From IMG/VR virus record IMGVR_UViG_3300042509_000762, positions 1 to 39,088 of that record: a DNA stretch of 39,088 nucleotides. The stretch is one strand, 5' to 3'. Under the pieces are notes generated by a model. It saw only the letters and a program-made list of their open reading frames with translations. It ran no database searches and was not told where the DNA came from. The position numbers and the translations under genes are program-made. Source of the stretch: a virus. Below are positions 1-39,088 of this stretch, piece after piece. Each line of letters starts with the position of its first letter. Position 1 is the first letter of the stretch.

Positions 1-103
1 AAACTGGAATAACACAGCTCCCACTTCTACCGTGTTTAGTGTTGGTGGGAACAATGTAGGTGCAGGCACAACCTATGGTGCCTACCTTTTTGCAACATGC
101 GCT
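1..103. repeat. terminal direct repeat, left copy (circular closure)
   Basis: These 103 bases match the last 103 bases of the window (offset 38985) with one difference: G at 78 here, T at 39063 there. Both copies lie inside the tail-fibre gene and in the same frame. The simplest reading is an assembly overlap of a circular or circularly permuted genome, giving a unit length near 38,985 bp. The mismatch changes a Gly codon to Val and may be read error or population variation. Confidence 0.93.
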
Positions 104-12225: not shown

Positions 12226-13302
12226 TCAACTGTTGATTACCTTGTCGATGCTGTCGGCCAGAGCCTGGTCGTCGCCGGTCAGGACGCCGGCATAGACCGT
12301 CAGCGTCACCTCGACGTTGGCATGCCCCAGGCGCTCGGAGACGGCTTTCAGCGGCATCTTTTCGCGCAGGAGATGCGTGGCATGGGCGTGGCGCGTCGAG
12401 TGCAGGCAGTAGCCCTCGTCCAGCCCGATCGCGCGCAGGGCGTCCTTGGTTGCCGAGGTCATGTAGGACAGGGTCGGGCGATCGCCCCACACGGTCTGCA
12501 GGACATGCTTGTCAGGCCGTCCGGCGGCAGCACGAAGCTCGTCGATCAGCGAGCGGGGCATGCGGATGGAGCGGATCGACTTAGCCGTCTTGGGCTTCTT
12601 CTCGTATTCGGCGTTGCCGACGCGGACGACGGTGCGCGAGACGTGAATGATGCCGGCCTCGAGGTCGATGTCTGACCACTTCAGCGCGCACATCTCGCCG
12701 CGGCGCATGCCAGTGTGCAGGGCGAGGCGGATCATGCGGCCCAGGAACGGCTTGTCGGCAGCGTGCGCCAGCAACGCCTTGATGTGGCGCTTCTCAAGCG
12801 GCTTGCGGCTCTCGCTGGAACCTTTCGGCGCCGAGACGCGTTTCATGGGGTTCTTCGCCAGCACGCCGGCTTCGATCGCCTGGTTGAACATCGCCTTCAG
12901 ATGGTGGTGCGTGATCGTCATCGTGCCTTCCGCGACGGCGCGGATCCGCGACAGGTAGAACGTCTCGATGTCCTCCTTCGTCAGCGAGCGCAGGGGGCGC
13001 GTGCCGTACATGGCGAAGAACGGCTTCATCAGGTTCTTCTGGCTCTGCTCGGTGACTTCCGAGATCTGCTTCAGCGCGAGGCGATTGGCCTGCCACTTCG
13101 TCCAGTGCATCTCGACGCTGTCGTCGGTGATCTGGACGAGGTCGCCGGTCTGGTGCTGCTGGAGGATCTCGACCTTGCGGGCGTCGGCATCAAGCCGCGT
13201 GCCTTTTAGGGTCTCGGTGCGGAACTTCCGCTGGCCGCTTTCCTGCGTCTCGATGCGGATGCGGAACACGCCAGGACTGCGTTCAAAAATCGTTACGTTC
13301 AT
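12226..13302 (-). CDS. int: tyrosine recombinase (phage integrase)
   Basis: This 358-residue site-specific recombinase integrates and probably excises the prophage. The N-terminal arm-binding and core-binding (SAM-like) domains cover about residues 1-160. The catalytic domain has all expected residues: Arg200 (TGMRRGE), Lys241 (KTAKS), His301 and Arg304 (HSTRH), His327 (LGH) and the nucleophile Tyr337 (TVYAG). It is the only minus-strand gene in the window. A GGAGGAGAG site precedes the ATG at 13302. A predicted promoter reads leftward from the operator region at 13327-13355. It lies between the ejection operon and a metalloprotease gene, away from the early region, which is unusual. No excisionase is evident. 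Confidence 0.95.
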   Translation of the reverse strand: MNVTIFERSPGVFRIRIETQESGQRKFRTETLKGTRLDADARKVEILQQHQTGDLVQITDDSVEMHWTKWQANRLALKQISEVTEQSQKNLMKPFFAMYGTRPLRSLTKEDIETFYLSRIRAVAEGTMTITHHHLKAMFNQAIEAGVLAKNPMKRVSAPKGSSESRKPLEKRHIKALLAHAADKPFLGRMIRLALHTGMRRGEMCALKWSDIDLEAGIIHVSRTVVRVGNAEYEKKPKTAKSIRSIRMPRSLIDELRAAAGRPDKHVLQTVWGDRPTLSYMTSATKDALRAIGLDEGYCLHSTRHAHATHLLREKMPLKAVSERLGHANVEVTLTVYAGVLTGDDQALADSIDKVINS

Positions 13303-13326: not shown

Positions 13327-13355
13327 ACAATAGTTGACTTGTGCGCTAGACGCAA
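13327..13355 (-). promoter_or_regulatory. predicted leftward integrase promoter
   Basis: Read on the minus strand, TTGCGT (13355-13350) is a -35 candidate. It is separated by exactly 17 bases from TATTGT (13332-13327), a -10 candidate. The -35 hexamer is part of the AGACGCAA element shared with the HTH-gene control region, so a bound regulator would block the promoter. Sigma-70 matching is by eye. Confidence 0.5.
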
Positions 13356-13378
13356 GCGGTTTGTGTGAGGCGCACAGC
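13339..13378. promoter_or_regulatory. candidate operator pair in the divergent int / metalloprotease region
   Basis: Bases 13339-13358 match the 20-bp element at 18763-18782 upstream of the HTH gene at 17 of 20 positions, including an 11-base identical core AGACGCAAGCG. Directly adjacent, 13361-13378 (TTGTGTGAGGCGCACAGC) is a second, looser copy lacking two bases. The two sites cover the -35 regions of both the leftward integrase promoter and the rightward promoter. This arrangement suits regulation of lysogeny genes by one DNA-binding protein, most likely the phage HTH protein. Binding is inferred. Confidence 0.55.
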
Positions 13379-13389
13379 TGTGGCATAAA
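13361..13389 (+). promoter_or_regulatory. predicted rightward promoter of the metalloprotease gene
   Basis: TTGTGT (13361-13366) and CATAAA (13384-13389) are separated by 17 bases. The predicted start of transcription is about 20 bases before the ATG at 13414, which has AGGGGA at 13402-13407. The -35 box falls inside the second candidate operator copy. The match to consensus is moderate. Confidence 0.45.
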
Positions 13390-13413
13390 GGGGCGTTTTA
13401 TAGGGGAACCGCA

Positions 13414-14481
13414 ATGGCAGAGCTGCGGCGTTACGAACCTACTTGGCGCGATCGTTTGGCTCAGATGATGATGGGCAACGGACGCGCGTCTCCGGAACGG
13501 CGCCGCGTTGTCGAAGGCCTACTCGGGTCGTCAGGTCTTGGTAATACCGGGATGGGCGTCGTCGATGTGACGCCGGTTGGCGGCATCCTTCAAGCGCAGG
13601 AAGCGGCTCGAGAAGGCGATGCGCGCGGTGCTGCGTTGGCAATCTTCGCTGGCCCTGCAGCCAAGACAGCGAACCGCGCAGCTCTCAAAACAGCTCAGGA
13701 GATGGCAGAGAAGGGCGCATCACGCGATGCGATCTGGAACGAGACGGGATGGTTTAAGGGCGTTGATGACAAGTGGCGGTTTGAAATACCGGACAACAAA
13801 TCTTTTTATCGAAGTCTCCCGACGCCTTCTCCACAGTCACAGGATGATTTTGTGAAACAGGGTGGCGATACCGTTGGGCGGCAACTTATTCACGACGAGT
13901 TGTTTGCTGCATATCCAGACGCAAAAGGTATTGGTCTCCAGCAGTTTTCTGGAAACTCAAAGCTAAAAGGCACTTACAGTTCAGGTGAAGGCGGCGCTAT
14001 GGATGGCGGTCAAATCTCTCTAATGGGGAATGATAAGGGTTCAACCATTCTTCACGAGTTACAGCACGCTATTCAAGACGCTGAGGGCTTTGCTCGCGGC
14101 GGAAATGCCTTTGGTCTTAAACCCGGCACACCCGCTTGGGGTATTTATCAAGATCGCCTAAAGAGCATTGTCACGCCACCATCGCTTGAGGATTTTGCTA
14201 AATCGTGGGGCGGAACGCCAGCCGAAGCTGCTGCTGATTATGCGAAACACGTTAAACAGCTTGAGACGTATTCAAAGAAAGGGCTTCCTTCAGATTTAGA
14301 CCGCGCCGCTCAAGAAAGCGCGGTAGAGGAAGCATATCGTCGCATGGCAGGAGAAGTTGAATCTCGTAATGTTCAGACGCGGCTAAACATGACACCAGAA
14401 CAACGCCGCGCCACTTTCCCCTGGGTGACGCAAGACGTTGAGGACGAGCTGCAAATCATCCGCGGTCTGCTAGACCGTTGA
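13414..14481 (+). CDS. zincin-type metalloprotease, LPD23-like
   Basis: This protein of 355 residues has HELQH at 214-218, the zinc-binding HExxH motif. A downstream GEVESRN (313-319) can supply the third, glutamate ligand. The surrounding HELQHAIQDAEGFARGGN and YRRMAGEVESRN...ERR pattern matches the LPD23 group of large polyvalent phage-protein domains. An N-terminal helical part and a TGWFKGVDDKWRFEI motif (111-125) also occur in injected phage proteins. It could be an ejected protease that acts on host proteins. However, it is cut off from the ejection operon by the integrase and has its own promoter with shared operator sites, so expression from the prophage is possible. Confidence 0.7.
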   Translation: MAELRRYEPTWRDRLAQMMMGNGRASPERRRVVEGLLGSSGLGNTGMGVVDVTPVGGILQAQEAAREGDARGAALAIFAGPAAKTANRAALKTAQEMAEKGASRDAIWNETGWFKGVDDKWRFEIPDNKSFYRSLPTPSPQSQDDFVKQGGDTVGRQLIHDELFAAYPDAKGIGLQQFSGNSKLKGTYSSGEGGAMDGGQISLMGNDKGSTILHELQHAIQDAEGFARGGNAFGLKPGTPAWGIYQDRLKSIVTPPSLEDFAKSWGGTPAEAAADYAKHVKQLETYSKKGLPSDLDRAAQESAVEEAYRRMAGEVESRNVQTRLNMTPEQRRATFPWVTQDVEDELQIIRGLLDR

Positions 14482-14559
14482 CCTAACCAAGTTTTCTGCC
14501 ATCTTTTCTTAGCGGGTCGAGTTCTGCTCCCCGCGCGGCGTGGCTCTCCAGCACGCTTA

Positions 14560-14616
14560 GGGGCCTGTGGCGGGTTTTCCTCTCTCCTCCCGACGCCACA
14601 GGCCCCGACCCTTTTT
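14560..14616 (+). terminator. long-stem terminator upstream of the early region
   Basis: A perfect 13-bp stem is formed by GGGGCCTGTGGCG (14560-14572) and CGCCACAGGCCCC (14594-14606), with a 21-base loop. Four bases later CTTTTT follows. The loop is long for a terminator, but the stem is very stable and the position, after the metalloprotease gene and before the early promoter, is as expected. Confidence 0.7.
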
Positions 14617-14640
14617 GGGCCAACCTCCCGATAAAAGTGT

Positions 14641-14669
14641 TTGTGCCTAGCGTAAACGACGCTTATGGT
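14641..14669 (+). promoter_or_regulatory. candidate early promoter with internal operator
   Basis: TTGTGC (14641-14646) and TATGGT (14664-14669) are 17 bases apart. The spacer contains the inverted repeat AGCGT-AAACG-ACGCT. Bases 14641-14658 resemble the integrase-region operator with two single-base gaps. It is the first promoter-like sequence before the long rightward early gene run. Confidence 0.5.
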
Positions 14670-14692
14670 GGGTCGCATCAAAGGAGAGCCAC

Positions 14693-14899
14693 ATGACCTA
14701 CCAGATTTACAACACAAAGACGGTCAAGAGCCTGACGCTGTTTGATGCCGATACGGAAGAAGAGGCCGTAGCTTATTTCGCCGAGTACGTTGCCGAACAC
14801 CCCGAACTGGCTAACGAGCTTGCCCATGCAAAGGTGCCTGATGAGTTGGTCTACGAGTACATCAACGACATCTACAAGATGGCCGGCACGCTGGACTGA
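14693..14899 (+). CDS. hypothetical early protein
   Basis: This acidic 68-residue protein is the first gene after the predicted early promoter and has a strong AAGGAGAG site. It has a short beta start (YQIYNTKTVKSLTLFDADTEEEA) and a helical remainder (YFAEYVAEHPELANEL, DELVYEYINDIYKM). First early genes of temperate phages often act on host processes, but no family is recognised. Confidence 0.65.
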   Translation: MTYQIYNTKTVKSLTLFDADTEEEAVAYFAEYVAEHPELANELAHAKVPDELVYEYINDIYKMAGTLD

Positions 14900-14910
14900 G
14901 GAGAGAACAC

Positions 14911-14997
14911 ATGGAACTGCGCGTCCCTCACATTCTTTGGATCTGCCTTTTCTGGTCGATCGTGATGATGTTCGTGGCGGAGAACTTCCTGCCATGA
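14911..14997 (+). CDS. 28-residue single-span membrane peptide
   Basis: This very small reading frame has a GAGGAGAG ribosome site ending 6 bases before its ATG and overlaps the next gene by ATGA. It encodes a hydrophobic peptide with one likely transmembrane stretch (HILWICLFWSIVMMFV). Tight coupling on the 3' side and the good ribosome site support its being translated. Function is unknown. Confidence 0.6.
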   Translation: MELRVPHILWICLFWSIVMMFVAENFLP

Positions 14998-15194
14998 CGA
15001 AGGCGATCGACATCAAACGCAACGACGACGGCACATGGACCGTTTACTACTTTGGCAAAGAGGCCGGCTACATCGAGCCGATCCGCTACAGCAAGCACGA
15101 CAAGGGCTACCGCGCTGTCAGCGTTCACGGTCGGCTCGACCACACCTACACCTTCGAGGGTGCCAAGCAATTCGTGATTGAGAATTACGCATGA
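14994..15194 (+). CDS. hypothetical small early protein
   Basis: This 66-residue protein has beta-rich, aromatic character (DGTWTVYYFGKEAGYIEPIRY, YRAVSVHGRLDHTYTFEGAKQFV). The ATG at 14994 overlaps the upstream stop (ATGA), and its own stop overlaps the next start (ATGA at 15191). The longer frame upstream is rejected because it lies in the genes before it. No family is recognised. Confidence 0.6.
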   Translation: MTKAIDIKRNDDGTWTVYYFGKEAGYIEPIRYSKHDKGYRAVSVHGRLDHTYTFEGAKQFVIENYA

Positions 15195-15628
15195 CAGATT
15201 GGTGGAGACACTACAAAGAAGTCCGCGCGCGTCTGAACCAGCAGCCGCAGATCACCAAGATCAAGCCTCCGAAACACGTCGACGACTACGTCATGCCGGT
15301 GTGCGTTCCAGAGGTTTCGGAAACCGCGGAGCAGCTGCAGAAAAAGCGGTTGAAGGGTTGCCCGCTTTCAATGCGTCGGCAGGCGATCGTCCTGCCGGTC
15401 CTCGAAGAGTTCGACATGACATGGGAACAGCTGTGGGAAAAAGACCGAACCGCAAAAATGCACCCGCCGCGGCGCAAGGTGTGGCTGAAGCTGTGGGAAG
15501 ACGGCATGTCGATGAACCAGATCGCGTACTACACGCGTCGAGATCACACGACGGTCCTGTGGGGCCTGCGGATGATCAAGAAGGAGCAATCAAAGGAGAA
15601 GGTGGAATGCACTACCGGGACACGCTGA
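15191..15628 (+). CDS. DnaA domain IV-like DNA-binding protein
   Basis: This 145-residue protein has a C-terminal half (about residues 92-133) resembling the DnaA box-binding domain. PPRRKVWLKLWEDGMSMNQIAYYTRRDHTTVLWGLRMIKKE contains RDHTTVL at 117-123, the hallmark of DnaA signature helix-turn-helix proteins. There is no AAA+ ATPase part, so it cannot open an origin alone. It may recruit or compete with host DnaA, or regulate transcription through DnaA boxes. A perfect DnaA box lies at 18752-18760. It is coupled to its neighbours through an ATGA and overlaps the next gene by 22 bases. Confidence 0.7.
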   Translation: MTDWWRHYKEVRARLNQQPQITKIKPPKHVDDYVMPVCVPEVSETAEQLQKKRLKGCPLSMRRQAIVLPVLEEFDMTWEQLWEKDRTAKMHPPRRKVWLKLWEDGMSMNQIAYYTRRDHTTVLWGLRMIKKEQSKEKVECTTGTR

Positions 15629-16011
15629 AGAAGGCGCTCGAGGTCATGGACGAGCGTCAGAAGAAGTACAGCACGCCGGAGATCAACTTCGCGCGCATCG
15701 CATCGCTCGCGTCGATCATGCTCAACCGCAACGTGACGCCATACGAAGTGTCGATGATCCAGCTCTGCACAAAGCTCGGCAGGCACATCGAGACGCCGGC
15801 CTACGAAGACAACGTGCTGGACGGCGTCAACTACCTCGCGTTCGTCGGCACGTTCGCCGGCCAGCATTTCGACGGCTTGTCTGAGCTGCGGCGCCAAGAA
15901 ATCATCGCCGGCATGGAAGAGGCGCTGCGTATGGACCAGGCGATCCGCAACAAGCCGCTGCTAACGGAAGCCGAACTTGAGGAGGCCTCCCGTGGCGCAG
16001 TCTCTGGTTGA
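15607..16011 (+). CDS. DUF6378-type protein (MazG-like nucleotide metabolism possible)
   Basis: This mostly helical protein of 134 residues has the pattern LEVMDERQKKYSTPEINFARIASLAS...VTPYEVSMIQLCTKLGRHIE...EDNVLDGVNYLAFVG. That pattern is typical of the DUF6378 phage family, whose fold resembles all-alpha NTP pyrophosphohydrolases. The pair of acidic-rich helices (DNVLDGVNYLA) fits a metal-binding site. ATG 15607 follows an AAGGAG site, and the frame overlaps the DnaA-like gene. A role in clearing modified or excess nucleotides is an inference from fold. Confidence 0.6.
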   Translation: MHYRDTLKKALEVMDERQKKYSTPEINFARIASLASIMLNRNVTPYEVSMIQLCTKLGRHIETPAYEDNVLDGVNYLAFVGTFAGQHFDGLSELRRQEIIAGMEEALRMDQAIRNKPLLTEAELEEASRGAVSG

Positions 16012-16228
16012 ACGTCTCGAGTTCACGGCAAAGACATCGCAGGATCCTGTCGACGCGCAGGCGCTGCGTGATGCTGCCGAAGCAATCGAGCTGTGCATCC
16101 GCTCGCTGTCGTTCTACCAGTGCGGCTGCAGCCTGCCTTGCACTGAGGACCAGTACAAAGACAGTCCCTGCGGCATGCGTGCCAAGCGCACGATCAAGGC
16201 GTTGAACGATGGCCGATCAAGGCTTTGA
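15992..16228 (+). CDS. small Cys-containing early protein
   Basis: This 78-residue protein uses GTG 15992, six bases after GGAGG (15981-15985); an upstream TTG lacks such a site. A helix (SLVERLEFTAKTSQDPVDAQALRDAAEAIEL) is followed by FYQCGCSLPC and DSPCG, giving four cysteines in 20 residues that may bind zinc. It overlaps both neighbours. No function is recognised. Confidence 0.6.
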   Translation: MAQSLVERLEFTAKTSQDPVDAQALRDAAEAIELCIRSLSFYQCGCSLPCTEDQYKDSPCGMRAKRTIKALNDGRSRL

Positions 16229-16469
16229 CGCCAACCTGATCCTCGATCAAGACGTCGGCGTTCGCGCCGCGCAGATCGCTGACGCCGTGATGACGATCGC
16301 CGAACGGATCAGCGAAGAAACAGACACACCGGCCTGCGGGGTCTTCCAGGAGATCATCAAGGCCGCTGTCGGAAGCATGCACTTCCACGGTCACGGAGAA
16401 TGTGCGGACGCACTGCTGAAGGCGGTTCTCGTCATCAGCGGAATGCCAGACGATACGACCATCAACTAG
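16209..16469 (+). CDS. hypothetical early protein
   Basis: This 86-residue acidic, helical protein (VRAAQIADAVMTIAERISEE, ECADALLKAVLVIS) overlaps the previous gene by 20 bases. A central HFHGHGEC stretch is His-rich and could hold a metal, but this is not enough to assign a role. The gene lies in the run of small early genes. Confidence 0.55.
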   Translation: MADQGFDANLILDQDVGVRAAQIADAVMTIAERISEETDTPACGVFQEIIKAAVGSMHFHGHGECADALLKAVLVISGMPDDTTIN

Positions 16470-16479
16470 GAGAGAGACG

Positions 16480-16638
16480 ATGCGTAAATTACTGACTGCA
16501 ATCGGCCTGTCGGTGTTCCTGCTGACGCCGACGATCGCCGTGGCCTGCTCGACGACGACATACTTCGTCAACGGCAAGGTGATCGTGTGTGTGACGTGCT
16601 GCAACAACGGCAGCAACTGCTCGACCGTGTGTTCGTGA
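16480..16638 (+). CDS. small exported Cys-rich peptide
   Basis: This 52-residue reading frame has a GGAGAGAG ribosome site. The first 22 residues are a textbook signal peptide: MRKLL, a hydrophobic core (AIGLSVFLL) and AVA before Cys23, usable by signal peptidase I or, less well, by the lipoprotein peptidase. The mature part is about 30 residues with six cysteines (23, 37, 40, 41, 47, 51), Thr/Asn-rich, suggesting disulfides in the periplasm. Envelope-directed roles such as superinfection exclusion are conceivable. No family is recognised. Confidence 0.6.
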   Translation: MRKLLTAIGLSVFLLTPTIAVACSTTTYFVNGKVIVCVTCCNNGSNCSTVCS

Positions 16639-16645
16639 GGTCGAG

Positions 16646-16885
16646 ATGCTGAACAACTTCCACGATTGGTTCAACAGCGCGAAGCGTGGCGCCAAGTTCA
16701 CCTACCACACGGGCGACCTGGCATTCGATCGGTATGTGCCGCTCGCAAAAACACCGACGCCTGAGAAGCGCGAACTCAACATGCTGGCCGAGATGGCATA
16801 CGAGCTTTACTTGCAAGGCGATATTTTGCTGATCCAAAAACGCCAGGAGAAGAACATCTACAAGTACATCGCGGTGAAGAGGTAA
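16646..16885 (+). CDS. hypothetical early protein
   Basis: This basic protein of 79 residues starts MLNNFHDWFNSAKRG. Its AKFTYHTGDLAFDRY stretch looks like a conserved small phage domain, followed by a helix and a short beta pair (ILLIQKRQEKNIYKYIAVKR) resembling a winged-helix end. A DNA-binding role is possible but unproven. A GAGG site lies before the ATG. Confidence 0.6.
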   Translation: MLNNFHDWFNSAKRGAKFTYHTGDLAFDRYVPLAKTPTPEKRELNMLAEMAYELYLQGDILLIQKRQEKNIYKYIAVKR

Positions 16886-16888
16886 ACG

Positions 16889-17086
16889 ATGGACAGAGAG
16901 AAGCACGCGTTCTTTACCGCCGTGCAGCGCATGGAGCGTGAGAGCAAAGAGCGTCGGAAGAAGGATGCCGAAGCGCACAAGCGGCACATGCTGGCAAGTA
17001 TGACCGGCGGCTTCGGAAGGAACCAAGCGACCCGCCCGAAGAAGATCACGCTGCCGCGGGTATCTATCTTGGAGGACAAGAAATGA
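16889..17086 (+). CDS. basic hypothetical early protein
   Basis: This 65-residue protein has a highly charged helix (FFTAVQRMERESKERRKKDAEAHKRHML) and a Pro/Lys-rich tail. It is coupled to the next gene by ATGA at 17083. The composition suggests nucleic acid contact or a disordered adaptor; nothing more can be said. Confidence 0.6.
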   Translation: MDREKHAFFTAVQRMERESKERRKKDAEAHKRHMLASMTGGFGRNQATRPKKITLPRVSILEDKK

Positions 17087-17346
17087 TCATGGTCAAAGGA
17101 CAGGAAGACGAGGACGGTGCTGGGCTGTATTGGGAGGACGGCACGCGGCTCACTGATAAAGAAGGCGAGGCTTGGTGGGCGGGCTATAACCAAGGCCATC
17201 AGGACGGCGAAGAGGATGCCGAGGAGGACATGCTTGGTGAGATCATGCGGCTGCGCGATGCGCTGCGTTACATGGTCGAAAACCCGGAAGATGTTGAGAG
17301 TTTTTGGCAGATTGCCCGCGTTGCGCTTGGGGAGGGGAAGGGATGA
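17083..17346 (+). CDS. acidic hypothetical early protein
   Basis: This 87-residue, strongly acidic protein (GQEDEDGAGLYWEDG, GHQDGEEDAEEDM) ends in a helix with MVENPEDVESFWQIARVAL. It overlaps both neighbours by ATGA. Small acidic phage proteins sometimes mimic DNA to block host nucleases, but no known family is recognised, so this is only a possibility. Confidence 0.6.
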   Translation: MIMVKGQEDEDGAGLYWEDGTRLTDKEGEAWWAGYNQGHQDGEEDAEEDMLGEIMRLRDALRYMVENPEDVESFWQIARVALGEGKG

Positions 17347-17540
17347 GTGAAATCACAGAGGCGCAGTTTGAGAGGGTCATACAACGTCTGGCTGATAATA
17401 ATAAGGCGTTGAGTGATCTTGTCGATTTTCACGCAAAAGAAAATGACCGGCTGCGTTGGGCGCTTAAGTTTATTCTTGGTGCTGAAAGGTTAAACGATGC
17501 TCACGTTGCCGCACGCACCGCGCTGGAGGAAAAGGAATGA
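17343..17540 (+). CDS. small helical early protein
   Basis: This 65-residue helical protein starts at ATG 17343, coupled by ATGA at both ends. It begins ITEAQFERVIQRLADNNKALSDLVDFHAKENDRLRWAL, a coiled-coil-like pattern. The ENDRLR motif is echoed in the next gene, so the pair may be related or may interact. Confidence 0.55.
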   Translation: MSEITEAQFERVIQRLADNNKALSDLVDFHAKENDRLRWALKFILGAERLNDAHVAARTALEEKE

Positions 17541-17731
17541 GCAGAGTAACCAAAAAAGCACTCAATGCCTTTGTCATTGCAAACCTTGAATCTGAAAATG
17601 ATCGGCTGCGTCGCCGCGTGCAGGAACTTGAGACGAAAGACATCATCCGCCTCGAAAAACAAACCAAACGTCTGTTCGCCGCGATTGCGGACATTTATGA
17701 GGTGATCATGTTACCGGGGATTAAACGATGA
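17537..17731 (+). CDS. small coiled-coil early protein
   Basis: This protein of 64 residues has a clear heptad region (IANLESENDRLRRRVQELETKDIIRLEKQ) and ends in a short hydrophobic helix. It shares the ENDRLR stretch with the upstream product and is coupled by ATGA on both sides. It is possibly a dimerisation partner; function is unknown. Confidence 0.55.
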   Translation: MSRVTKKALNAFVIANLESENDRLRRRVQELETKDIIRLEKQTKRLFAAIADIYEVIMLPGIKR

Positions 17732-17937
17732 ACTGCTCATCATGCCGCTACTACCGAGGCACGACGATCGGCTACTGCCATCGTTTTCCGCTTGTGACGA
17801 AGGCGGCGTCGACGCACTGGTGCGGAGAGTATGCGGCTGTCGACACGCCGAAGGCGCCGACAGACACGACGAAAAAATCACGCGGTAAACTTACATTTAA
17901 ATCGCCACATGATGATTTCTATGGAGAGAAAAAATGA
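17728..17937 (+). CDS. small zinc-ribbon-like protein
   Basis: This 69-residue protein has Cys3-x2-Cys6, then GYCHRFP with Cys17-His18, and WCGEY with Cys32, a pattern used by small phage zinc-binding proteins. The C-terminal half is Lys/Thr-rich and probably disordered. It is coupled by ATGA to the genes on both sides. It may be an adaptor for the nuclease encoded next, but only the position suggests this. Confidence 0.6.
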   Translation: MNCSSCRYYRGTTIGYCHRFPLVTKAASTHWCGEYAAVDTPKAPTDTTKKSRGKLTFKSPHDDFYGEKK

Positions 17938-18746
17938 ACTTTACGACAGGCTTGCACACGAATATGCCGGCACCGGACTATCACGCGATCGACGCACTGT
18001 CTGCGAGCGGTGCGAAGCATTTGCTGAGGTCACCCGCGCACTATCTCGCGCAAAAAGAGCAGCCGATGCAGCCGACCGCGGCGATGCGTCTCGGCACGGC
18101 AGTCCACACGATGATCCTTGAGCCGGAGAAGGCAGACATCGAGATCGCTAGGGCGCCGAAGGTCGACAAGCGGACGAAGGTCGGCAAGGAAACGATCGAG
18201 CTGTTTGAGCGCGAGAACGCCGGCAAGCTGTGTCTTGACGCCGACGTGTACGACAAGGCGGCAGCGATCGCTGACGCCGTGTACAAGCATCCGACAGCGC
18301 GCGAGCTGCTGAAGGATGGGCAGTCGGAAGTGTCGATGTTGTGGAAGGCTTACGGCGACACGCCGTGCAAGGCCCGCTTCGACTACTACCGCGGCGACGG
18401 CATCGTCGACATCAAGACGACGCAGGACGCGTCGCCCGAAGCATTCGCGCGCAGCATTGCGTCGCTGAAGTACCACATGCAGGCGGCGCACTATCTGCAG
18501 GGCTATCGTGAGGTGACGGGCTGGGACGCCGACCACTTCACGTTCATCGCCGTCGAGAACGAGCCGCCCTATGCGATCGGCATCTACCGGCTCGACGACG
18601 CGTCGCTGCAGACCGGACGCATGCTGATGGAGAAGGCCGCAATGGCCTTCCGGACGGCAGCAGATCCCGTCCAGTGGAAGGGCTACCGCCAGGACATCGA
18701 GACGATCTCCGTGCCGTCCTGGGCGTTGCTGGACCCCAGCTGGTAA
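17934..18746 (+). CDS. RecB/exonuclease VIII-like PD-(D/E)XK nuclease
   Basis: This 270-residue protein has the layout of phage recombination exonucleases. It has SASGAKHLLRSPAHYL (22-38), GTAVH with His58, Glu132 (SEVS), KARFD (146-150), VDIKTT with Asp159 and Lys161, and a final QAAHYLQGY motif (183-191). These are the PD-(D/E)XK catalytic and RecB signature elements. Such enzymes resect duplex ends to make 3' single strands for annealing or repair. The ssDNA-binding-like protein encoded at 20175 and the resolvase at 19654 are plausible partners. No separate annealase such as RecT is seen. Confidence 0.8.
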   Translation: MNFTTGLHTNMPAPDYHAIDALSASGAKHLLRSPAHYLAQKEQPMQPTAAMRLGTAVHTMILEPEKADIEIARAPKVDKRTKVGKETIELFERENAGKLCLDADVYDKAAAIADAVYKHPTARELLKDGQSEVSMLWKAYGDTPCKARFDYYRGDGIVDIKTTQDASPEAFARSIASLKYHMQAAHYLQGYREVTGWDADHFTFIAVENEPPYAIGIYRLDDASLQTGRMLMEKAAMAFRTAADPVQWKGYRQDIETISVPSWALLDPSW

Positions 18747-18751
18747 ATCGT

Positions 18752-18760
18752 TGTGGATAA
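18752..18760 (-). promoter_or_regulatory. perfect DnaA box
   Basis: On the minus strand this reads TTATCCACA, the strongest DnaA box consensus. It lies in the short non-coding stretch between the exonuclease gene and the HTH gene, 3 bases before the 20-bp operator-like element. With a DnaA-domain-IV-like protein encoded by the phage, a regulatory or origin role is plausible. Confidence 0.5.
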
Positions 18761-18762
18761 CT

Positions 18763-18791
18763 TTGTGTGTGAGACGCAAGCGATTGCGTCT
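18763..18791. promoter_or_regulatory. candidate operator / palindrome upstream of the HTH gene
   Basis: A perfect 8-bp inverted repeat, AGACGCAA (18772-18779) and TTGCGTCT (18784-18791), surrounds GCGA. It sits at the end of a 20-bp element (18763-18782) that recurs in the integrase region with three mismatches. TTGCGT at 18784-18789 can serve as a -35 box with TAGCTA (18808-18813) as the -10 box, spacing 18. This suggests autoregulation of the HTH gene. Confidence 0.6.
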
Positions 18792-18842
18792 ACACACGAA
18801 GACAGTCTAGCTAACGGTGCAGTGATTGGTGGAGGGTTTGAA

Positions 18843-19064
18843 GTGGCCGGGATTGTTATCGAGACTACAGACGACATCGTGCAGGTCATTGAGCGGGAGC
18901 GCGTGCGGCAGGGATTGTCGCAACGGCAGCTTTGCGCCGAGGCGGGCTTGTCGCATGGGGCTTATTGGTTTGTGAAGCAGAACCGTGGCGGGCTTCACAT
19001 GGACACAGCTTTGAGACTGCTCGAGGCTGTTGGGGCCGGCGTCAGTGTTGAGGTTCAAAAGTGA
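18843..19064 (+). CDS. XRE-type helix-turn-helix regulator
   Basis: This 73-residue protein is essentially a single HTH domain: IVQVIERERVRQGLSQRQLCAEAGLSHGAYWFVKQN, with the helix-turn-helix at about residues 24-47, then DTALRLLEAVGAGVSVEV. The GTG at 18843 is chosen because GGAGG (18831-18835) lies 7 bases upstream. The longer frame from 18753 would run through the palindrome and DnaA box and has no good ribosome site. It is the only clear transcription regulator of this type in the genome, so it is the best candidate to bind the repeated operator elements. It is Cro-sized and has no dimerisation or peptidase domain. Confidence 0.75.
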   Translation: MAGIVIETTDDIVQVIERERVRQGLSQRQLCAEAGLSHGAYWFVKQNRGGLHMDTALRLLEAVGAGVSVEVQK

Positions 19065-37489: not shown

Positions 37490-39088
37490 GTGCTGACAGA
37501 TCTGCTCGTCAAGAATGCTTCAAGCGATCGGCTGTACGTCGAGGACGTGTTCAGCACATGGCTCTATTCGGGGAACGGCAGCACGCAGACCATTACCAAC
37601 GGGATAAACCTGTCTGGTAAAGGCGGAATGGTTTGGGTTAAGGGGCGAAATCAAACAGTCGGACACTGGCTAACAGATACAAGCCGTGGGGCGACAAAAT
37701 CACTTCAAACAAATTCAACAATCGCCCAGCAAACAAAAACCGCTGGTATAAGTTCATTCTCTGCGACAGGTTTCAATCTTGGTGATGACGGTGATTTTAA
37801 CGATGCTGCTGGAAACTACGCCTCATGGACCTTCCGCGAGGCACCGAAGTTCTTTGATATTGTGACGTACACGGGGAATGCTAGTGCGCGCGACATTAGC
37901 CATAGCTTAGGAACATCACCGGGCTTCATAATTATCAAGCGAACAGATGCAGTTGCTCAATGGAATGCGTGGCACAGAAGCCTAGCAGCAAATAACATTT
38001 TATTTTTGAACCAAACTGCTGCAACTACTAGCGCTTCCGGCTATGTATCTGCTGTATCCAGCACCACGTTTTCTATTGGCACTCAAAATAACGTCAACGC
38101 CTCGGGTGGCTCCTACGTCGCCTACCTCTTTGCCCACGATACAACCGCTGATGGCATCGTGCAGTGTGGGTCGTTTACGACTGACGGTTCTGGCGCTTAC
38201 TCTGTTAATCTTGGCTGGGAGCCGCAATTTATTCTTGTAAAACAAACAAACGGTACAGCAAATTGGTACTTATACGATACGATGAGGGGATTGCCAGACA
38301 CATACAATGATGGTGTAGAACTATATCCAAACACATCAGGAACAGAGCAGCTTAACGCTTCTGCTAGGCCAAGCGCTACAGGGTTTTATTCAACGAACTT
38401 TGCTGGCGCAGGGGCGACACATATCTACCTCGCCATCCGCCGAGGCCCTATGAAGGTGCCTACGGATGCGACGAAAGTGTTAAATTTAAGCACGCGGACA
38501 GGTACTGGCGCTACAGCTTCTATTTCTGGTTTAACATCAGCTCCTGATGTTGCATTTATTTCTTCCCGCAACGGGTGGAGTTCCCCAGTATTTATAGATA
38601 GGCTTCGTGGATTTGGACAATCATTAGTTACTGTTTCAACATCTTCCGAAGGATCGGCAACAGATAGTATTACTGCTATGGGTAATACATCTATATCTCT
38701 TGGATCAGACACGACTCAAGGCTATGTAAATTATAGCAGCAAACCTTATGTTAATTGGATATTGAGCCGCGCCCCCGGCTTCTTTGATGTGGTCTGCTAC
38801 ACGGGGACAGGGGCCGCTGCTACAGTCACGCATAATCTTGGCGTTGTCCCTGAAATGATTATTGTTAAGGGGAGAAGCGGAGCTACCGATTGGCCTGTTT
38901 ATCATGTAGGGACAAATGGCGGGGTTTCCCCGCAACAATATTATACGCGATTAAATTCAACAGCGGCGCAAACAAATGCGGTTGCAAACTGGAATAACAC
39001 AGCTCCCACTTCTACCGTGTTTAGTGTTGGTGGGAACAATGTAGGTGCAGGCACAACCTATGTTGCCTACCTTTTTGCAACATGCGCT
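37490..39088 (+). CDS. tail fibre-like protein (DUF7483-type), N-terminal and central part
   Basis: Translation begins at GTG 37490 and is open to the window edge (533 codons); it continues at 104-409 across the circular junction. The repeated module reads FFDxVxYTGxxxxxxxxHxLGxxPxxIIxK, seen at about residues 122-150 and 431-460 with weaker copies between. Each is followed by a stretch ending YLFA or YLAIRR. Such modular proteins are thought to form receptor-binding fibres. Base composition from about 37,640 onward is visibly more AT-rich than in the tail genes before it, a sign of exchange by recombination. Confidence 0.8.
   Translation, partial: MLTDLLVKNASSDRLYVEDVFSTWLYSGNGSTQTITNGINLSGKGGMVWVKGRNQTVGHWLTDTSRGATKSLQTNSTIAQQTKTAGISSFSATGFNLGDDGDFNDAAGNYASWTFREAPKFFDIVTYTGNASARDISHSLGTSPGFIIIKRTDAVAQWNAWHRSLAANNILFLNQTAATTSASGYVSAVSSTTFSIGTQNNVNASGGSYVAYLFAHDTTADGIVQCGSFTTDGSGAYSVNLGWEPQFILVKQTNGTANWYLYDTMRGLPDTYNDGVELYPNTSGTEQLNASARPSATGFYSTNFAGAGATHIYLAIRRGPMKVPTDATKVLNLSTRTGTGATASISGLTSAPDVAFISSRNGWSSPVFIDRLRGFGQSLVTVSTSSEGSATDSITAMGNTSISLGSDTTQGYVNYSSKPYVNWILSRAPGFFDVVCYTGTGAAATVTHNLGVVPEMIIVKGRSGATDWPVYHVGTNGGVSPQQYYTRLNSTAAQTNAVANWNNTAPTSTVFSVGGNNVGAGTTYVAYLFATCA
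38986..39088. repeat. terminal direct repeat, right copy (circular closure)
   Basis: This is the second copy of the 103-base repeat that opens the window, identical at 102 positions. Joining base 39088 to base 104 keeps the tail-fibre frame open. Packaged-end repeats of T7 type are less likely because the repeat is short, sits inside a coding gene, and the terminase is of the headful-packaging type. Confidence 0.93.

Follow-up and report, generated by a model that had tools for sequence, protein, structure and literature searches.

A short near-palindromic element that overlaps the -35 boxes of several promoters in the window (the whole stretch analyzed, 39,088 nucleotides of the IMG/VR virus record IMGVR_UViG_3300042509_000762) is the putative operator of a 73-aa helix-turn-helix (HTH) protein encoded in the same genome. 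We consider it likely, with a probability of roughly 70%, that a homodimer of this protein represses the integrase promoter, the early promoter and its own promoter, and is thereby the probable keeper of lysogeny in a phage that has no CI-like gene. Many environmental podoviruses carry an integrase and no recognizable repressor, and the means by which they stay silent is the question addressed here. The relevant features of the window are the following:

12226..13302, minus strand: tyrosine integrase gene (PF00589, E 5e-22; PHROG 1 integrase, E 6e-60)
13339..13355, minus strand: putative integrase operator, dyad TTGCGTCTAGCGCACAA as read on the minus strand
13355-13350 and 13332-13327, minus strand: -35 (TTGCGT) and -10 (TATTGT) of the integrase promoter, spacer 17
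13361..13377, plus strand: weak further copy of the dyad, TTGTGTGAGGCGCACAG, 22 bp away from the integrase operator and placed at the -35 of a rightward promoter
14641..14657, plus strand: putative, degenerate operator of the early operon, TTGTGCCTAGCGTAAAC; -35 at 14641-14646, -10 (TATGGT) at 14664-14669
14693..14899, plus strand: first gene of the early operon, 68 aa, an ORF 37 bp past the early dyad; Shine-Dalgarno aaaggaga
15191-15628: gene for a DnaA-domain protein, early operon
17934..18746, plus strand: RecE/exonuclease VIII-like gene (PHROG 412, E 8e-84), just upstream of the HTH promoter
18763..18779, plus strand: putative HTH operator O1, TTGTGTGTGAGACGCAA, a match to the dyad pattern
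18784..18800, plus strand: putative HTH operator O2, TTGCGTCTACACACGAA; left arm TTGCGT is the -35 (18784-18789)
18808-18813, plus strand: candidate -10 of the HTH promoter, TAGCTA
18843..19064, plus strand: XRE/HipB-like HTH gene, 73 aa, the proposed repressor

The initial annotation had described a 20-bp element shared by the integrase region and the HTH gene, and this similarity holds: positions 13339-13358 (TTGTGCGCTAGACGCAAGCG) and 18763-18782 (TTGTGTGTGAGACGCAAGCG) are identical at 17 of 20 positions and share the core AGACGCAAGCG, with the next-best match to either 20-mer in the window reaching 14 of 20. A 17/20 match to the integrase 20-mer was found in one of 200 windows shuffled at first order, and, in the list that was checked, the two 20-mers are the only separate intergenic pair agreeing at 16 or more positions, except for the two arms of one hairpin. 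The 20-base element is a genuine, non-chance repeat.

The 20-mer with its core was nevertheless dismissed as the unit of recognition because related phages show a 17-bp dyad. The putative operator unit is this near-palindrome, TTGYG(T)-N5/7-(A)CRCAA, the arms of which pair at 4.4 of 5 positions on average; its left arm coincides with the -35 box and its right arm fills the spacer, the -10 box mostly following 17 nt on. The overlap with TTGCGT proposed from the first reading is present both at the integrase gene (minus strand, 13355-13350) and at the HTH gene (plus strand, 18784-18789). The 8-bp inverted repeat noted at 18772-18791 (AGACGCAAGCGATTGCGTCT) is indeed perfect, but it bridges the neighboring operators 18763-18779 and 18784-18800, relatives do not conserve it, and it is a coincidence where two tandem operators meet rather than a functional unit. 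As an operator it was rejected, its matches in an IMG/VR scan being confined to two contigs, L002 and L020. L002 is a near-identical phage that shares the repeat; L020 is an unrelated contig, with its copy lying outside any phage of the family. Two exact matches to a stricter pattern outside the family, in L020 and L026, were discarded as chance positions.

The element is conserved in dozens of related phages. The same promoters bear sites in two clades, A and B, in which the integrases are 76-100% and the HTH proteins 28-100% identical; a scan of 33 records allowing up to three mismatches found one to three sites in nearly all of them, at the integrase, early, HTH and head places, and a control scan with the reversed pattern gave two single matches. 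The exact form TTGCG-N7-CGCAA, expected about 0.1 times per genome, occurs up to six times, and dyads number about two to eight per genome. In many relatives, the head operon that follows TerL carries a dyad as well; this site after the terminase gene is absent from the window. Two divergent phages, phiM5 and MW202496.1, keep both an HTH homolog and dyads at the promoters of c2-like and head genes, phiM5 at the integrase gene too. The arms read TTGCG in clades A and B and TTGTG in phiM5, which has three perfect TTGTGT-N5-ACACAA dyads. Some relatives (clade B, MW202496 and phiM5) encode a c2-like second repressor, the own promoter of which bears the same dyad. Chance similarity, with which the early and O2 copies of the window would be compatible when taken alone (in a matrix scan, they score no better than matches within genes), we regard as refuted by the comparison with relatives, in which both place and sequence are conserved, and by the shuffles; its probability is negligible.

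The same comparison bears on whether the element is simply a class of promoter with an extended -35 and no operator function, a reading that agrees with the identity of TTGCGT as the -35 box and with the prevailing distance of 17 to the -10 box. This is very unlikely, considering that the right arm CRCAA, which is conserved and pairs with the left arm, falls within the spacer, a stretch not read by RNA polymerase; that tandem copies 21 bp apart before the HTH gene would be needless for a promoter; and that the element is missing from related phages without a YW-type HTH protein (see below). Furthermore, the asymmetric core at the integrase gene has opposite orientations in clades A and B, yet the distance of the 17-mer from the -10 is 17 nt in both, which is what a symmetric ligand with a fixed footprint would give. 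Promoters of a T7-like phage RNA polymerase were rejected too, since the sites are dyads found in either orientation and the matches listed include no polymerase of this kind.

Within the window, the dyad is found at the promoters of the integrase gene, the early operon and the HTH gene. The dyad pattern matches the integrase site, O1 and one position inside the portal gene, with no other occurrences. The motif search suggested earlier, with a matrix from the four window sites, is powerless. A matrix trained only on clade B ranks the integrase site first (22.4 against 14.0 for the next), and all relatives that have this integrase keep the site at the same position. The looser copy reported at 13361-13378 exists and its position is conserved; it is weak, its arms pairing at 4 of 5 positions in the window, and relatives keep the dyad only in part. 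The proposed relative of the element at the early promoter is degenerate in the window and, on its own, falls outside the top 20 in the scan trained on other phages, but its orthologs are strong, near-perfect dyads (for example, TTGCGTCTAGCGCGCAA at L007 410-426), the window copy being a weak remnant. The right arm of O2 has decayed in the window, whereas most relatives have a perfect dyad there and an O1-like site upstream at the same 21-bp offset. Two of the four window sites (early and O2) are accordingly degenerate.

Occurrence of the dyads varies with the recognition helix of the HTH protein. In 13 of the 14 records with a YW recognition helix, the dyads number at least two, the class total being 59 in 461 kb; none of the 14 records with other helices reaches two, and the total there is one in 446 kb. 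The Fisher value obtained from these counts overstates independence, many of the records belonging to one clade; clade A, clade B, MW202496 and phiM5 are the independent YW lineages, compared with several of the non-YW type, and such lineages are few. The HTH protein is the only regulator common to all dyad-bearing phages, and the only non-virion genes common to the window, clade B, MW202496 and phiM5 are those for the integrase, a RuvC-like resolvase and the HTH protein. Judging from this co-variation, the 73-aa HTH protein is the most likely ligand, and the earlier suggestion that it acts at dispersed operators gains a promoter element and a probable ligand, with the unit corrected to the 17-bp dyad.

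That some other protein binds the dyads is improbable, although each candidate has something in its favor. The integrase site abuts the integrase gene, the usual place of attP, and the integrase might bind it as core-type att sites; however, five of the 14 other-helix records, dyad-free relatives with HTH homologs, possess an integrase (G034, G035, G041, G044 and G055, with a single unrelated-looking match in G035), and other dyads occur well away from the integrase gene, at HTH and head promoters. The c2-like repressor is confined to dyad-bearing records among the 40 searched, but is missing from the window and from G005, G009, G010, G015 and G025, all of which bear dyads. Both candidates were rejected on distribution. 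The DnaA-domain protein is encoded in the early operon but was rejected as well, a search of clade B finding no homolog. A host regulator is possible but improbable: the arms vary with the phage HTH protein, and related phages with other HTH proteins lack dyads.

The HTH protein matches PHROG 1373 (transcriptional regulator, E 1e-4) and HTH_31 (E 3e-4, below the Pfam cut-off), and its clade B homolog matches HTH_31 (5e-7) and HTH_3 (2e-6), both above the cut-offs, placing it by profile among XRE/Cro-CI-type HTH domains. The AlphaFold2 model (pLDDT 82) is all-helical with an HTH, and its best Foldseek matches are HipB (probability 1.00, TM 0.75-0.80), which a PDB profile search also finds; the predicted fold is thus HipB-like. 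At 73 aa, the protein consists of the HTH only and does not have the two-domain architecture of CI-like/S24 repressors. The absence of a CI-like repressor asserted in the initial annotation is confirmed within the scope of Pfam and PHROGs on the 48 window proteins, where no S24/CI family is among the 25 commonest families listed, and of a search with the c2-like repressor of relatives, which has no match in the window. The neighbors of the HTH gene are exonuclease VIII and HNH endonuclease genes, or methyltransferase/RuvC genes.

The Cro and CI proteins of lambdoid phages, 434 Cro included, are small XRE-type HTH proteins with dyad operators over the -35/-10 region, autoregulation and control of early promoters. 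The window system resembles them in its small XRE-type HTH protein, in its -35/-10 dyads over both the early promoter and the HTH gene's own promoter, at which binding is predicted, and in the autoregulation and early control that would follow from such binding; it differs in the location of the gene inside a recombination operon rather than a divergent immunity region, in that the integrase, early, own and head promoters each have one or two operators, and in the lack of a CI/Cro pair in the window. Integration-dependent immunity of the BPs type also links a small immunity system to the integrase gene, but the window shows no sign of an attP inside the repressor gene. With HipB, the antitoxin and autorepressor of Escherichia coli and Legionella, the protein shares the fold, the size of about 73 aa, and 5-bp arms around a center of 7-8 bp in several tandem operators of its own promoter (TATCC-N8-GGATA in HipB; PMC3920265). 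It is only 14-22% identical to HipB, with TTGYG..CRCAA operators at phage promoters and no adjoining gene for a HipA-like kinase, there being no HipA family among the matches listed for the 48 window proteins. The L5 repressor of cluster A mycobacteriophages likewise serves as a single phage repressor with sites dispersed over the genome, but it acts as a monomer on more than 20 asymmetric 13-mers and halts elongation as well (PMC9283540); here, the sites are dyads, two to five in number and at initiation sites, and their orientation at the integrase gene differs between clades, unlike the many asymmetric, transcription-oriented sites of stoperators. Sinorhizobium phage phiM5 (MF074189.1), which is temperate (PMC10386132), resembles the window phage in TerL (69%), in an HTH homolog of 73 aa (phiM5_36) and in dyads upstream of the integrase gene, at the divergent c2-like/early promoter and upstream of gp54; it differs in its TTGTGT rather than TTGCGT arms, its c2-like repressor and its replication module. 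One scan of the genome collection yielded no prophage of this group, its only match being a distant integrase in Limnohabitans, so that the evidence for temperate life comes from the integrase and from phiM5.

In the mechanism that we propose, a HipB/Cro-fold homodimer of the HTH protein would sit on the 17-bp dyad, covering the -35 box and the spacer and so keeping RNA polymerase from the promoters of the integrase gene, the early operon and, through two tandem operators 21 bp apart, the HTH gene itself; in relatives, the promoter of the head operon, which follows the terminase gene, would be blocked too. Lying within the early operon, the HTH promoter would provide negative autoregulation and a low, steady level of the protein. 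In phages without a CI-like gene, the window phage included, this protein would probably silence the prophage.

A possible but clearly less probable alternative keeps the protein and its sites and gives them a Cro-like part, the early lytic shutdown of early, integrase and c2-like transcription, with lysogeny kept by the c2-like protein in some relatives and by an unrecognized factor in the window. Consistent with this, the HTH gene is part of the early operon, co-directional with recombination genes and not in a divergent immunity region; clade B, MW202496 and phiM5 have the dyad at their c2-like promoter, which recalls PRM as a target of Cro; and HTH homologs without their own promoter occur in relatives in which no integrase was found, such as MW202711. 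Against it, every dyad-bearing phage of clades A and B has a dedicated promoter for the HTH gene, many relatives have a dyad at the head operon, which a lytic factor should spare, and the window has no recognizable CI or c2-like gene. For the HTH protein, we consider a CI-like role (upkeep of lysogeny) more probable than a Cro-like one.

A broader generalization, to which we give somewhat less than even odds, is that one HTH-only protein, about 73 aa long and of HipB fold, encoded in a recombination operon and having no CI partner, silences the prophage through -35 dyads, that this arrangement is broadly distributed among LUZ24-like temperate podoviruses of alphaproteobacteria, and that it was lost together with its operators where the HTH helices differ. 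The comparison of relatives thus names a protein, its putative operator and its regulon, and offers a sequence rule: a YW recognition helix accompanies TTGYG-N7-CRCAA. The prediction is testable at once in phiM5 of Sinorhizobium meliloti, a cultured phage that bears the predicted system. If true, this would be a minimal lysogeny switch, with one protein and one operator acting at all key promoters.

TerL of the 39,088-base IMG/VR virus record is 80% identical to that of the environmental phage MW202711.1 and 69% identical to that of Sinorhizobium phage phiM5, which has been described as temperate and LUZ24-like (PMC10386132). The early operon on the plus strand includes genes for exonuclease VIII, the 73-aa HTH protein, an HNH endonuclease, RuvC and a helicase-primase, and the head genes are placed after TerL. 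The ends of the window (1-80 and 39000-39088) are nearly alike (CTTCTACCGTGTTTAGTGTTGGTGGGAACAATGTAGGTGCAGGCACAACCTATG), which reflects either an imperfect assembly end repeat or tail-gene repeats. The region of interest contains:

12226-13302, minus strand: tyrosine integrase (int)
13339-13355: int dyad
13414-14481: optional cargo gene between int and the early promoter, encoding an LPD23-domain protein whose HELQH motif is metalloprotease-like; absent or replaced by other genes in some relatives
14514-14624, plus strand: RNA-like structured element, conserved and also located between int and the early promoter
14641-14657: early site
15191-15628: early-operon protein whose HTH resembles DnaA domain IV (Pfam Bac_DnaA_C, E 6e-6)
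18752-18760: perfect DnaA-box 9-mer TGTGGATAA, immediately ahead of the HTH operators; kept in most clade A relatives but altered in L009 and L010
18763-18779 and 18784-18800: tandem HTH-promoter sites O1 and O2
18843-19064, plus strand: HTH gene

As claimed in the initial annotation, the 20-mers at 13339-13358 and 18763-18782 agree at 17 of 20 positions; such a match to the int 20-mer occurred in 1 of 200 shuffles, and the element is unlikely to be a product of chance even when judged within one genome. The perfect 8-bp inverted repeat described at 18772-18791 is present but is the joint of two adjacent sites and is not conserved in relatives, which are needed to read the true form of the element, not apparent from the window alone.

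Relatives were gathered with an exonuclease query (18 contigs), an exact pattern scan (34 stretches), an integrase query (28) and a TerL query (80 loci). The integrases of clade A are 82-100% identical to that of the window and those of clade B about 77%. The near-palindrome TTGCGTCTAGNNCGCAA occupies the same places in both clades, upstream of int, the early operon and the HTH gene. With up to 3 mismatches allowed, nearly all of 33 records have one to three sites at these places, compared to 2 single matches in total in the backwards control; exact TTGCG-N7-CGCAA, expected about 0.1 times per genome, was observed up to 6 times. Many relatives carry an extra conserved site directly after the TerL stop, ahead of the head genes, that was not found in the window. 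In three records without dyads (L135, L143 and L144), a putative tRNA-like sequence (e.g. GCGGGCGTAGCTCAACGGTAGAGCC... in L135) lies directly after TerL, at the head-operon operator place.

In a scan of the window using a matrix whose training set was limited to clade B, the int dyad was the best match (22.4), whereas O1 and O2 scored 14.0 and 11.4, and the early site fell outside the top 20. Because of these scores, the whole-genome search previously suggested, with a matrix from four window sites, would fail; the case for the predicted window operators is carried by orthology.

In each promoter, the left arm of the dyad is the -35 box, the right arm lies within the spacer and the -10 box is mostly 17 nt further:

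int promoter: TTGCGT-17-TATTGT
late promoter: TTGCGT-17-TATTTT
clade B HTH promoter: TTGCGC-17-TATGTC

The clade A early and HTH -10 boxes are weaker (2-4 of 6 matches, spacing 15-18), and in this clade two operators 21 bp (two helical turns) apart precede the HTH gene. At int, the asymmetric core is inverted between clades A and B while the distance from the footprint to the -10 box is unchanged, as a symmetric ligand predicts.

The RNA-like element, also identified in the related records L004, L005, L007/L045, L010/L090, L012, L018/L087, L054 and L058, had no match in Rfam. It has three predicted hairpins, the largest being GGGGCCTGTGG...CCACAGGCCCC, in which CUCUCUCCUCCCG is left unpaired; these 12 nt are perfectly complementary to the int ribosome-binding site of the window (CGGGAGGAGAGA). 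Compensatory changes affect 6 of the 27 predicted pairs, and the fold z-score is -2.3. The layout resembles the alpha-r14/NfeR1 anti-Shine-Dalgarno sRNAs (PMC10746234), and such an sRNA borne by a phage, if true, would be of interest in itself.

Every dyad-bearing phage has the HTH protein, and no other regulator candidate is shared by all of them. Outside the virion genes, the window, clade B, MW202496.1 and phiM5 have only the integrase, a RuvC-like resolvase and the HTH protein in common. The recognition helix contains Tyr-Trp in some HTH homologs (SHGAYWF, SHSAYWY, SPSAYWW, AHATYWF) but not in others (SHATYAA, SSNTIHA, SFATYAV and others). Of 14 Tyr-Trp records, 13 carry at least two TTGYG-N7-CRCAA dyads (the fourteenth is a 7-kb fragment), compared with 0 of 14 records without Tyr-Trp (59 dyads in 461 kb versus 1 in 446 kb; Fisher p 7e-7, not to be taken literally because the records share kinship). 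Five records without Tyr-Trp that have an integrase lack dyads, except for a single match in one, so dyad occurrence does not follow that of the integrase. Although most of their non-virion genes are unlike those of clade A, phiM5 and MW202496 retain both the dyads and the Tyr-Trp HTH, which tempers the kinship objection. In phiM5, one perfect TTGTGT-N5-ACACAA dyad lies 50 bp upstream of int, a second in the divergent c2-like/early promoter and a third upstream of gp54.

A c2-like repressor (about 134-142 aa, on the strand opposite the early region) occurs in only part of the group (L080:15532-15957, L096:34454-34855, L095:27392-27760, G011 and G014); neither the window nor five further dyad-bearing records have it. 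Where it is present, its promoter often bears a dyad (clade B, MW202496 and phiM5). This dyad, along with the location of the HTH gene in the early operon, speaks for a Cro-like role of the HTH protein, which we consider somewhat less probable than a lysogeny switch.

The AF2 model of the HTH protein (pLDDT 82) has four or five helices, with HipB as the nearest fold (Foldseek, PDB profiles). HipB, which is related to Cro, binds TATCC-N8-GGATA as a dimer (PMC3920265); unlike in HipBA, no HipA adjoins the HTH gene. We file the protein as an XRE-type regulator with a HipB-like fold, not a HipBA antitoxin.

All parts of this system are of known kinds. For the layout, in which a recombination operon encodes one small HipB-fold putative repressor, each key promoter has one dyad and several members have no CI, the literature searched offered no precedent; the search did not extend to the original phiM5 description and is no proof of absence. 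The comparison directly shows the dyads, their placement, their conservation and their co-variation with the HTH protein, from which binding, repression and the biological role are inferred. Most likely, an HTH dimer would bind the dyads, occlude the polymerase at the promoters that bear them and limit its own synthesis. Since the HTH gene has a promoter of its own, relatives carry a head-operon site and CI is missing, we tentatively favor, with a probability of roughly 0.4, a role in which the HTH protein would maintain lysogeny as a full lysogeny switch.
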